A DNA stretch of 64,000 nucleotides from Candidatus Solirubrobacter pratensis. GTDB taxonomy: Bacteria > Actinomycetota > Thermoleophilia > Solirubrobacterales > Solirubrobacteraceae. Location: NCBI RefSeq assembly GCF_000425945.1, contig NZ_AUEK01000012.1, positions 124,001 through 188,000 of the forward strand, in the 5' to 3' direction. Shown here piece after piece: positions 10,669 to 13,480 of this stretch (its first letter is position 1; each line of letters starts with the position of its first letter). The notes beneath the pieces are model-generated. The model saw only the letters and a list, made by a program, of their open reading frames with translations, ran no database searches and was not told where the DNA came from. Position numbers and translations under genes: made by a program.

Positions 10669-10965
10669 TCAGGCGGCCATCCATGGCCGGTCGGCGACGT
10701 CGCACGTCTGGACGACGCGGGTGTCGAGCCGCGGCAGGATGCGGTCCACGACGAGCGCCTTGAAATGCTGCGACTCCCGGTGGGCCGCGAACGCCTCGGG
10801 CGACGTGTAGCGCTCGAGCACGACGACGTTGCGAACGTCGCGCTCCTCGCGGTAGGCCGCGAAGAAGACGTTCCCCGGCTCGGTGCGGGTGGCCGCGGCC
10901 AGCCTGGGCAGCAGTGAGAGGACCTCGTCCTCGCTGCCGGCGGAGATCCGGTAATAGGCGATCAC
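10669..10965 (-). CDS. Antibiotic-biosynthesis-monooxygenase-fold (YgiN-like) protein
   Basis: About 98 residues of the dimeric alpha/beta ABM fold: VIAYYRISAGSEDEVLSLLPRLAAATRTEPGN, then VVLERYTSPEAFAAHRESQHFKAL, the strand-helix signature of YgiN/quinol-monooxygenase-like and heme-degrading proteins. A GTG at 10965 with AGAGAG about 8 nt upstream is the likely start; a TTG at 10980 is possible. It is convergent with the VOC gene, with 5 bp between stops. Confidence 0.8.
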   Translation of the reverse strand: MIAYYRISAGSEDEVLSLLPRLAAATRTEPGNVFFAAYREERDVRNVVVLERYTSPEAFAAHRESQHFKALVVDRILPRLDTRVVQTCDVADRPWMAA

Positions 10966-11149
10966 TTGAAGCTCTCTCAAGACGGCATCCTCGGTCCGAG
11001 GGCGGCGGCCGAGCCGGGTGCTCCGAATTCACCCGGCCCGGAAGCCCGGGTCCTGCTTTGAAGGGCGTTGTCTCACGAGCCGGACCCTCCCGGGCAGGCG
11101 CGGCACCCGCTCTTGCCCCGAAGGTGCCATGCCCGCAGATGGACTTCAG

Positions 11150-11167
11150 GGTCCAATTGCTTGGACC
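11150..11167. promoter_or_regulatory. TetR operator (GGTCCAA-N4-TTGGACC)
   Basis: A perfect 7-bp inverted repeat around TTGC. It overlaps the -35 hexamer TTGCTT (11157-11162) that stands 17 bp before TACGCT (11180-11185) in front of the TetR gene. A related half-site, TGGAC-N6-GTCCA (11140-11155), adjoins it on the left. The overlap with the -35 element is what autorepression would require. A cognate-looking palindrome lies before ogt. Confidence 0.65.
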
Positions 11168-11185
11168 GGTTCCGCCGGGTACGCT
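11157..11185 (+). promoter_or_regulatory. Promoter of the TetR gene
   Basis: TTGCTT and TACGCT are separated by 17 bp. The -10 element ends 6 nt before the GTG start at 11192 and there is no Shine-Dalgarno, so the transcript is predicted to be leaderless. Confidence 0.5.
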
Positions 11186-11191
11186 GTCCCC

Positions 11192-11812
11192 GTGGGCACT
11201 CGGCGGCCTTCACGCTTGACGGCGCGCGGAGCGGCGACGCGCGCGCGGATCGTCGAGTCCGCCGCCGATCTGATGCACCTCAACGGCGTGTCCGCGACGA
11301 CGCTGGACGACGTCCGGGCGGCCAGCGGCACCAGCAAATCGCAGCTCTACCAGCACTTCGCCGACAAGGACGCGCTCGTTGACGCGGTGATCGCGTTCCA
11401 GGCCGGCGAGCTGATCGCGCGCCAGACGCAGCGGCTGCAGCGGCTGGACTCGCTGCGCGGGCTCGAGCTGTGGAGGGACGCGGCAGTCCGCCGGAGCGCA
11501 CTCCGCCGCGGCGCGCATGGCTGCGAGCTCGGATCGCTGGCGAGCGAGCTCGCCGACCGCGACGAGGACGCGCGCGCCGCCCTCGCGGCGCACTTCAGGA
11601 ACTGGGAGGCGCTGCTGACGGCCGGCCTCGAGCGGATGCGGGCGAACGGCGCGCTCAGGCCCGAGGCGGACCCGGTCAAGCTCGCGACCGGCATCCTCGC
11701 AGCGCTCCAGGGCGGCTACCTGCTGGCCCAGACGGCGCGCGACACGGCGCCGCTGGAGGTCGCGCTCGACATGGCCCTCGACCGGGTGCGGGCGGCTGCA
11801 GCAGCGGAGTGA
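11192..11812 (+). CDS. TetR-family transcriptional regulator
   Basis: About 206 residues. The N-terminal helix-turn-helix (residues 10-60) is RGAATRARIVESAADLMHLNG, then TTLDDVRAASGTSKSQLYQHFADKDALVDAVI, the classic TetR signature. The C-terminal TetR_C domain contains GCELGSLASELADRDEDARAALAAHFRNWEALLTAGLE and GILAALQGGYLLAQTARDTAPLE, the ligand/dimer part of the YxaF/LmrA-like branch. The GTG at 11192 is chosen because it follows a promoter-like TTGCTT-N17-TACGCT by 6 nt. A strong palindrome covers the -35, and a related palindrome sits right after the stop, upstream of ogt, suggesting autorepression and control of the next gene. Confidence 0.92.
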   Translation: MGTRRPSRLTARGAATRARIVESAADLMHLNGVSATTLDDVRAASGTSKSQLYQHFADKDALVDAVIAFQAGELIARQTQRLQRLDSLRGLELWRDAAVRRSALRRGAHGCELGSLASELADRDEDARAALAAHFRNWEALLTAGLERMRANGALRPEADPVKLATGILAALQGGYLLAQTARDTAPLEVALDMALDRVRAAAAAE

Positions 11813-11813
11813 A

Positions 11814-11831
11814 TTGGACCTTGAGGACCAA
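11814..11831. promoter_or_regulatory. Second operator-like palindrome (TTGGACC-N4-GGACCAA)
   Basis: It lies 2 bp after the TetR stop and 39 bp before the ogt ATG. One base breaks perfect symmetry. The half-sites TTGGACC/GGACCAA match those of the palindrome over the TetR promoter, though in inverted order. TTATAC at 11861-11866 could be the ogt -10. It suggests that the TetR protein also controls ogt. Confidence 0.55.
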
Positions 11832-11870
11832 TTTCCCTCACGCGACGGGCGGCGCGGGCGTTATACCGGC

Positions 11871-12395
11871 ATGACCACGTCCTGGACCATCTACGAGAGC
11901 CCGCTCGGGCCGCTGACGGTGATCGCGGGCGCCTCCGGCATGAGCCGCATCCGCTTCCCCGGCTCGGACGAGCGACTCGACGAGGCCGGGCGCCGCCCCG
12001 CCGCCTTCGCGGTGGCGACCGAGCAGCTCGACGAGTACTTCGCGGGCGACCGGCAGGCGTTCGAGCTGGACCTGGACCTCAGCGCCGGAACCGCGTTCCA
12101 GCGCAAGGTCTGGGTGCAGCTGCGCGTGATCCCCTACGGCACGACGGTGAGCTACGGCGACCTGGCCCGTGCGATCGGGCGCCCCGACCGGCTCCGCGCC
12201 GTCGCCGCCACCGTCGGGCGGACGCCCGTGCCGATCGTCATCCCCTGTCACCGCGTCATCGGCGCCGACGGCTCGCTAACGGGTTACGGCGGCGGCCTGC
12301 ACCGCAAGCAGGCGCTGCTCGAGCTCGAGGCGCGCGGCGCCGCCGGGCAGGCGCCCGAGCCCGCCTGGGCATTCCGCCAGCTCACGCTCAGCTAG
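11871..12395 (+). CDS. ogt: Methylated-DNA-protein-cysteine methyltransferase
   Basis: A 174-residue Ogt/AdaB-type suicide repair protein that takes O6-alkyl groups from guanine onto its own cysteine. The C-terminal domain carries TAFQRKVWVQLRVIPYGTTVSYGDLA, the arginine finger region IGRPDRLRAVA and the acceptor motif PVPIVIPCHRVIGADGSLTGYGGGL (Cys near residue 125). The N-terminal region is the usual ribonuclease-like cap. Length is normal. The gene lies directly behind the TetR gene with an operator-like palindrome in between, an unusual arrangement, as ogt is more often Ada-linked or constitutive. Confidence 0.94.
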   Translation: MTTSWTIYESPLGPLTVIAGASGMSRIRFPGSDERLDEAGRRPAAFAVATEQLDEYFAGDRQAFELDLDLSAGTAFQRKVWVQLRVIPYGTTVSYGDLARAIGRPDRLRAVAATVGRTPVPIVIPCHRVIGADGSLTGYGGGLHRKQALLELEARGAAGQAPEPAWAFRQLTLS

Positions 12396-12451: not shown

Positions 12452-13480
12452 GTGCAGCGACTTCCCCCTGAGCCGGTGCAGCGCCACGTGCAGCGCCTGG
12501 CTCCGTTCGCCGCGGTGACGGCCGTCGGGCTGGTCCTCGCGCTGCCCTGGTCGGCATCGGCGGAGAGCTACGCGGGCTACGGCATCTGCTGGCTGCTGAT
12601 GCTGGCGGTCGGCGCGATGTCCGTGTTCGCGCGCTCCTCAGGCCCGGCCTGGCTGCGCCTCGGGCGCCCGCTGACGTACCTCGCCGCCGTCGGCGTCCTG
12701 CGCGAAGTCACCGGCGGCGCGAGCGGCGGCGTCGGGATCCTCGTGCTCGTGCCCGTGATGTGGGTCGCCCTCTACGGCTCGCGCTGGATGCTCCGCGGGA
12801 CGCTCCTCGGCGTCGCCCTGGTGTGGGTGCTGCCGCTCGTGGCGATCGGCGGGGCGCGCTATCCGGCGACAGGTTGGCGCAGCTGCGTCCTGACGGTCGC
12901 GCTCGCGGCGATCATCGGCACGACGGTGCAGCACCTCGTCGCCCAGGCGCGCGAGCAGGCCGGGAGCGCGCGGCGTCACGCGCGCGAGCGCGAGCGGCTG
13001 CTGGCTCAGGTCAGCGAGCTCGCGCGCACCGACTCGCTCACCGGGCTGGCCAACCGGCGCTCATGGGAGGAGCACGTCGCCGCGACGCTGGAAAGCGGCG
13101 AGCACGCGGTCAGCGTCGCGGTGCTCGACCTCGATCGCTTCAAGGCCCTCAACGACGAGTCCGGGCACGCCGCCGGCGACCGCTGCCTGCGCGAGAGCGC
13201 CGCGGCGTGGACCGCGCAGCTGCGCCCGAGCGACCTGCTCGCGCGCATCGGCGGCGACGAGTTCGCGATCCTGCTGCCCGGCTGCACACTCGACGAGGCG
13301 CGCGTCATCGCGACCCGTGTCGCCGAGGCGACCGCGGGCACCGGGTGCTCGATCGGGGTCGCGGAGTGGGACGGCAAGGAGACGCCCGAGGAGCTGCAGC
13401 GGCGCGCCGACCTGTCGCTCTACGCGGCGAAGCGCGAGCGCGCGGGTAGCTCGGTGTGGGCGCCGAGCAGGGCCGCGTAA
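12452..13480 (+). CDS. Membrane-anchored diguanylate cyclase (GGDEF)
   Basis: 342 residues. The N-terminal half has about five to six hydrophobic helices (LAPFAAVTAVGLVLALPW, YGICWLLMLAVGAMSVFA, ILVLVPVMWVALYG, TLLGVALVWVLPLVAI, VLTVALAAIIGTTV), then a coiled linker (REQAGSARRHARERERLLAQ) and a GGDEF domain starting at ARTDSLTGLANRRSWEEH. The active-site loop is intact, RIGGDEFAILL near residue 266, so it should make c-di-GMP from two GTP. The RxxD-type inhibitory site is not evident. No EAL domain is present. The GTG at 12452 is the best in-frame start. Confidence 0.9.
   Translation: MQRLPPEPVQRHVQRLAPFAAVTAVGLVLALPWSASAESYAGYGICWLLMLAVGAMSVFARSSGPAWLRLGRPLTYLAAVGVLREVTGGASGGVGILVLVPVMWVALYGSRWMLRGTLLGVALVWVLPLVAIGGARYPATGWRSCVLTVALAAIIGTTVQHLVAQAREQAGSARRHARERERLLAQVSELARTDSLTGLANRRSWEEHVAATLESGEHAVSVAVLDLDRFKALNDESGHAAGDRCLRESAAAWTAQLRPSDLLARIGGDEFAILLPGCTLDEARVIATRVAEATAGTGCSIGVAEWDGKETPEELQRRADLSLYAAKRERAGSSVWAPSRAA

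Follow-up and report, generated by a model that had tools for sequence, protein, structure and literature searches.

A TetR-type regulator resembling NemR and QdoR as a likely second input to the DNA-repair gene ogt

In the 64 kb window (the whole stretch of DNA that was analysed), the gene for a TetR-type regulator lies directly upstream of ogt, on the same strand and 58 bp away. Our main reading, to which we give a probability of roughly 0.55, is that a NemR/QdoR-like TetR represses both itself and ogt, that a signal releases the two, and that ogt keeps an ECF-type promoter. According to this model, TetR would have two targets, one operator immediately before its own promoter and another copy immediately before that of ogt; in the bound state it would repress its own gene and hold down ogt, and both genes would be released by a ligand or when an electrophile or oxidant modifies TetR's only cysteine. 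The CTCACG-N16-CGTT element of ogt would probably be read by an ECF sigma factor whose gene lies at another place in the genome and shares an operon with a second ogt-type gene. What the analysis shows directly is the sequences and their rarity, the operator form of the family, the alignment of the cysteine, and the promoter element held in common; binding, repression, the signal, and the assignment of the sigma factor are inferred from sequence. TetR looks like a second switch of ogt rather than the sole one, and the arrangement as a whole would be a new wiring of known parts. The features on which the argument turns are the following.

10669–10980, minus strand: gene with an ABM domain (Pfam ABM), the divergent neighbour of tetR
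11139–11156, plus strand: operator O1 of tetR, ATGGAC-TTCAGG-GTCCAA, with one mismatch to the family form; the same form is found before the tetR genes of relatives
11150–11167, plus strand: first palindrome of the earlier note, best taken as O1's right half together with the O2 half-site
11157–11185, plus strand: likely tetR promoter, TTGCTT (11157–11162), 17 bp, TACGCT (11180–11185), read by eye
11161–11167, plus strand: additional TTGGACC half-site overlapping the -35; it probably forms the left half of O2, a second and degenerate operator (11161–11178)
11192–11812, plus strand: tetR, 206 aa, GTG start, an LmrA/YxaF- and NemR-like TetR regulator (Pfam) with a single cysteine, Cys111
11814–11831, plus strand: candidate operator before ogt, TTGGAC-CTTGAG-GACCAA, with one mismatch, which falls in the right half's core
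11837–11862, plus strand: ogt promoter of the ECF-sigma type, leaderless; CTCACG-N16-CGTT, ending 8 nt before the ATG
11871–12395, plus strand: ogt, O6-alkylguanine-DNA alkyltransferase, 174 aa (Pfam DNA_binding_1 and Methyltransf_1N, and TIGR00589, all above cut-off)

Operators of tetR and of its relatives

Comparison of the regions upstream of relatives of this TetR gave TTGGAC-N6-GTCCAA as their common operator form. In the register of the relatives, O1 of tetR (11139–11156) is ATGGACTTCAGGGTCCAA, which places an AC-N6-GT inverted repeat at tetR's own promoter. Related sites also occur upstream of tetR in genomes of the same genus and of the same family, in Kribbella, and in a Rhodospirillales MAG; a paralogous tetR of the same genome, on contig C6, has TTGGACCGGTCGGTCCAG upstream, and two Streptomyces plasmid loci (L160 and L161), whose TetR is ~66% identical to ours, have AGGGACCTTGAGGTCCCT before tetR, with GGACCTTGAGG in common with the site before ogt. 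Eleven of the 12 close relatives that we examined, which are not all independent (three are Kribbella, and L160 and L161 are near-identical), have GGAC-N6-GTCC without mismatch within 220 bp before tetR. The exception is a plasmid of M. abscessus, which has GGTC-N6-GACC instead. Four near-duplicates (L049, L051, L053, and L054) and the more distant L056 had been omitted from this set. When 24 tetR loci were scanned over their whole length, the operator was found at ≤1 mismatch in 11 and in none of the other 13; for minus-strand tetR genes, its presence was taken from such whole-locus scans. The family-form operators upstream of the relatives' tetR genes bear out the suggestion of the earlier note that the regulator governs itself, and we consider it very likely that tetR is autoregulated.

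The earlier note had based its case on two palindromes, both of which are there as written: 11150–11167 reads GGTCCAA-TTGC-TTGGACC, a perfect 7-4-7 inverted repeat, and 11814–11831 reads TTGGACC-TTGA-GGACCAA, with one unpaired position (A opposite A). The two were taken to share half-sites and spacing, and hence to be one operator. This does not hold, given that the order of the half-sites is opposite (GGTCCAA...TTGGACC at the first palindrome vs TTGGACC...GGACCAA at the second), and each pattern therefore matches its own site alone at 0 mismatches. We consequently rejected that register as the common operator; the site at tetR that has the family form is 11139–11156 and not the palindrome named there. 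The latter is most readily explained as O1's right half joined to the left half of O2 on the -35, because the tandem operators of locus L040 show the same arrangement: its two operators are 22 bp apart, and their junction is GGTCCA-N6-TGGACC. The offset from O1 to the extra half-site is also 22 bp, and tandem operator sites, 22–63 bp apart, are present in 15 listed relatives.

Translation of tetR apparently begins on a leaderless transcript, at the GTG at 11192. The placement of the first palindrome on the tetR -35 stands insofar as it overlaps a -35 that is plausible by eye; a sigma-70 consensus scan, at its threshold, found no promoter before tetR. On the other side of the intergenic region, no operator was found before the divergent ABM-domain gene, where the best match in 10961–11138 has four mismatches. 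Just upstream of that gene, at 10985–11005, a small palindrome, CCTCGG-T-CCGAGG, was seen by eye.

The site before ogt

The second palindrome does sit just before ogt, in the interval from the end of tetR (11812) to the ATG of ogt (11871), and in the register of the relatives 11814–11831 is TTGGACCTTGAGGACCAA. Its one departure from the family form is in the core, GACC for the otherwise conserved GTCC. Such sites are rare. In the 6.64 Mb genome, TTGGAC-N6-GTCCAA occurs at ≤1 mismatch in four places, namely O1, the ogt site, the operator of the paralogous tetR on C6, and a site within a coding frame that resembles an ABC-transporter ATPase. The genome-wide search thus did not bring up many unrelated copies of the palindrome, and three of the four sites lie beside a tetR of the same family. 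In a 20 Mb Markov-1 simulation with the composition of the window there were three matches at ≤1 mismatch, or ~1 per 6.64 Mb, and the next best match within the window has three mismatches. With ≤2 mismatches allowed, the sites are not enriched (80 in the genome vs 121 for the reversed control), and weaker matches on their own therefore mean nothing.

The same simulation gives an expectation of 8.7e-6 for a site with ≤1 mismatch in 58 bp, which makes a fortuitous match at ogt extremely unlikely, despite its core mismatch and despite the fact that another of the four genomic sites is in a coding frame. With a second site immediately before ogt that is so far beyond chance, we think it likely that TetR has an input to ogt. 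The proposal that TetR controls ogt is supported by that site; weighing against it are the core mismatch, the failure to find the site before the other ogt genes that we examined, and the independent promoter of ogt.

The operator before ogt spans -57 to -40 relative to the presumed leaderless start and is 5 bp from the -35, so that bound TetR would be expected to hinder a polymerase carrying the ECF sigma factor. O1 occupies -53 to -36 relative to the presumed start of tetR, and the geometry is therefore alike at the two genes. Repression by blocking of the polymerase is the simplest reading, and read-through from tetR would be a compatible addition to it. A point against the main model is that the ogt site does not overlap the promoter but lies before its -35.

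A terminator scan found no terminator-like element between tetR and ogt, a result that bears on two further explanations. The first takes the palindrome behind tetR for a transcription terminator or an RNA hairpin instead of an operator. In its favor, the palindrome starts at the tetR stop and is able to form a fold (-10.4 kcal/mol, z -1.53). However, neither this fold value nor the scan supports a terminator, just three T follow the palindrome, and its sequence fits the operator form of the relatives; we regard this explanation as highly unlikely. The second is that TetR acts on ogt chiefly by read-through, tetR and ogt forming one transcription unit that is read from the autoregulated tetR promoter, much as nemRA is said in the consulted part of PMC3739934 to read through into gloA in E. 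coli. Here the negative scan is in favor, as are the common strand and the short distance between the genes; a second operator between the genes, and a promoter element that recurs before ogt, would both be left unexplained. We judge read-through as the main route of control to be unlikely.

The promoter of ogt and its conservation

The strict form of the leaderless promoter occurs once in the window, at ogt. We searched 70 ogt upstream regions (30 loci and a further 40), a subset of the known places; in some of them the ogt match starts inside the gene, so that the stretch searched is partly coding. The element CTCAC-N15..18-GTT was found in 11 of them, two of which (G001 and G006) are identical, vs one in the reversed and none in the reverse-complement control. 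Five of six same-genus relatives have an ogt with this element, again with two identical. In seven of seven genomes of the genus, this one included, the same element is found at nearly the same spacing before the start codon of an ECF sigma gene, with another ogt-type gene after it. In 20 further genomes, a sigma match was found upstream of ogt in all 20 and the promoter element in 13; of the seven sigma–ogt loci that lack it, three have a CGTC variant, and in a few of the others the element is not directly before the sigma start as placed by the profile. Counted over 27 sigma–ogt loci, the strict leaderless form is present in 18. The looser CTCACR-N15..16-CGTT has 45 matches in the whole genome, many of them alike and probably coding, and the short promoter motif alone is therefore not specific.

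In this genome, the ECF sigma gene and the second ogt-type gene after it are found at C5:473600-475000 (L242); the arrangement is also seen in loci L236–L262. The sigma factor of the C5 operon is of the ECF type (TIGR02937, above cut-off). A leaderless CTCAC[AG]-N16-CGTT promoter common to sigma operons and other ogt genes in many genomes suggests a sigma/ogt regulon. There is a parallel in group ECF122, whose sigma factors, as mentioned in a review (PMC8999054), have genes for 6-O-methylguanine methyltransferases nearby; the C5 operon, and the promoter element that it shares with the ogt of the window, resemble that arrangement, the group label being taken from the review. Unlike those systems, a TetR operator would have been added here. 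The leaderless CTCACR-N16-CGTT of ogt genes and ECF-sigma/ogt operons would offer a testable regulon for a poorly characterized kind of ECF sigma factor, and this by-product may matter more than the link between TetR and ogt.

Two other genes may be mentioned. A third ogt gene, on C3 (L144, 2561-3909), is divergent to a different TetR gene, the best NCBIfam match of which is PsrA, below cut-off. Directly downstream of the ogt in the window, at 12452–13480, is a gene for a GGDEF diguanylate cyclase.

The recurrence of CTCACG-N16-CGTT before ogt and before sigma–ogt operons invites the explanation that ogt is under its ECF-sigma-type promoter alone, the site at 11814–11831 serving only tetR as a distant second operator or as a relic. 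Consistent with this, the TetR site is private: at ≤2 mismatches, the operator is found in one of the 70 ogt upstream regions, that of the window itself. Against it, the intergenic stretch measures just 58 bp, the distance from the site to the -35 of ogt is 5 bp, and the genome has only four such sites. We regard this explanation as possible, although we doubt it. With a conserved promoter of its own that resembles those of ECF sigma factors, ogt would not depend on TetR alone; the gene probably has two inputs, the ECF sigma factor and, added in this lineage, TetR.

The pairing of the two genes was not seen elsewhere in our searches. Using ogt as a tblastn query, we found it near none of 50 other tetR places, which comprise 23 with flanks of ≤1.5 kb, 12 of 69 loci with flanks of ≤4 kb (the remaining 57, being weak matches, were left out), and 15 further places (16 loci, two of which are the same place); contig ends truncate some of the loci. 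Conversely, with tetR as the query, tblastn gave no such regulator gene next to any of 29 other ogt loci. The closest relatives of the TetR that we found lie outside the class, at ~58–67% (Streptomyces plasmids, Actinomadura, Kribbella, and Leucobacter/Microbacterium), vs 43–47% for same-genus matches, which suggests that tetR was gained by transfer. Together with the results for the 50 tetR places and the 70 ogt upstream regions, such a transfer would make the link to ogt specific to the lineage, and the case for it rests on the site itself.

Kinship of the regulator and its possible signal

The regulator has the domains TetR_N (helix-turn-helix), TetR_C_13, and TetR_C_13_2 above cut-off, with 50.3 bits for PF00440, 57.7 for PF21993, and 56.6 for PF16925, all above the gathering scores. 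Its relatives of solved structure include NemR and YxaF, the latter (1sgm) being the second-best match. In its C-terminal family, its aligned cysteine, and its AC-N6-GT operators, the protein resembles NemR and QdoR.

TetR is 26% identical to E. coli NemR, and its Cys111, invariant in 15 of 15 aligned sequences, aligns with Cys106 of NemR, which is reported to be needed for the response of a NemR-based sensor to hypohalous acids (PMC8748444, consulted in part). The column of the lysine that we take to be NemR Lys175 is occupied by Gln180, so the lysine is lacking here; because the same source reports the lysine to be dispensable in the sensor, we did not treat it as defining. A palindrome with the same AC-N6-GT spacing, TAGACC-GACT-GGTCTA, is found upstream of E. 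coli nemR. The likeness to NemR thus comprises the position of the cysteine, the palindrome upstream of nemR, and the order of a regulator gene followed by protective genes. It differs, apart from Gln180, in that the downstream gene here is for DNA repair and has its own promoter and its own candidate operator. With QdoR/YxaF and LmrA of B. subtilis, the regulator shares the C-terminal Pfam families PF21993 and PF16925, but the target is different (QdoR represses its own gene and qdoI, according to an extract of PMC8481877), and Gly-Cys111 of this TetR corresponds to glycine-isoleucine in YxaF. AltR of Pantoea, described in a portion of PMC13178969 as a NemR homologue with a key cysteine and the operator CAATCTAC-N6-GTAGATTG, likewise has such a cysteine and the AC-N6-GT spacing, whereas its target is a thiosulfinate-tolerance cluster.

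Alkyltransferase genes are usually discussed under Ada. The system described here is like the Ada regulon in that an O6-alkylguanine alkyltransferase would be controlled, and unlike it in that the regulator is of the TetR type. Our literature search, conducted mostly at the level of title listings, brought up no case in which a TetR protein represses ogt. Should the site be functional, alkylation repair would receive direct input from a sensor of the thiol or electrophile type. One might go further and suppose that this single-cysteine, NemR-like TetR senses alkylating electrophiles through modification of Cys111 and, with an ogt-dedicated ECF sigma factor, makes up a two-input switch for alkylation repair, in which a TetR fold has taken up a logic like that of Ada (an alkylated cysteine as the signal) and, in this lineage, has been combined with an ECF-sigma promoter. 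We put this forward as speculation, and rather doubtful speculation at that.

The genes that lie next to homologues of the regulator would suit a redox or electrophile sensor: judged by eye from their translations, they resemble SDR oxidoreductases, peroxiredoxins, and quinone-oxidoreductase-like proteins, and flavodoxin-family and peroxiredoxin genes are also annotated among them. In the Kribbella loci (L046–L048), two TetR genes of this family are arranged tail to tail, and more sites like TTGGAC-N6-GTCCAA are found before neighboring genes, perhaps constituting a small local regulon.
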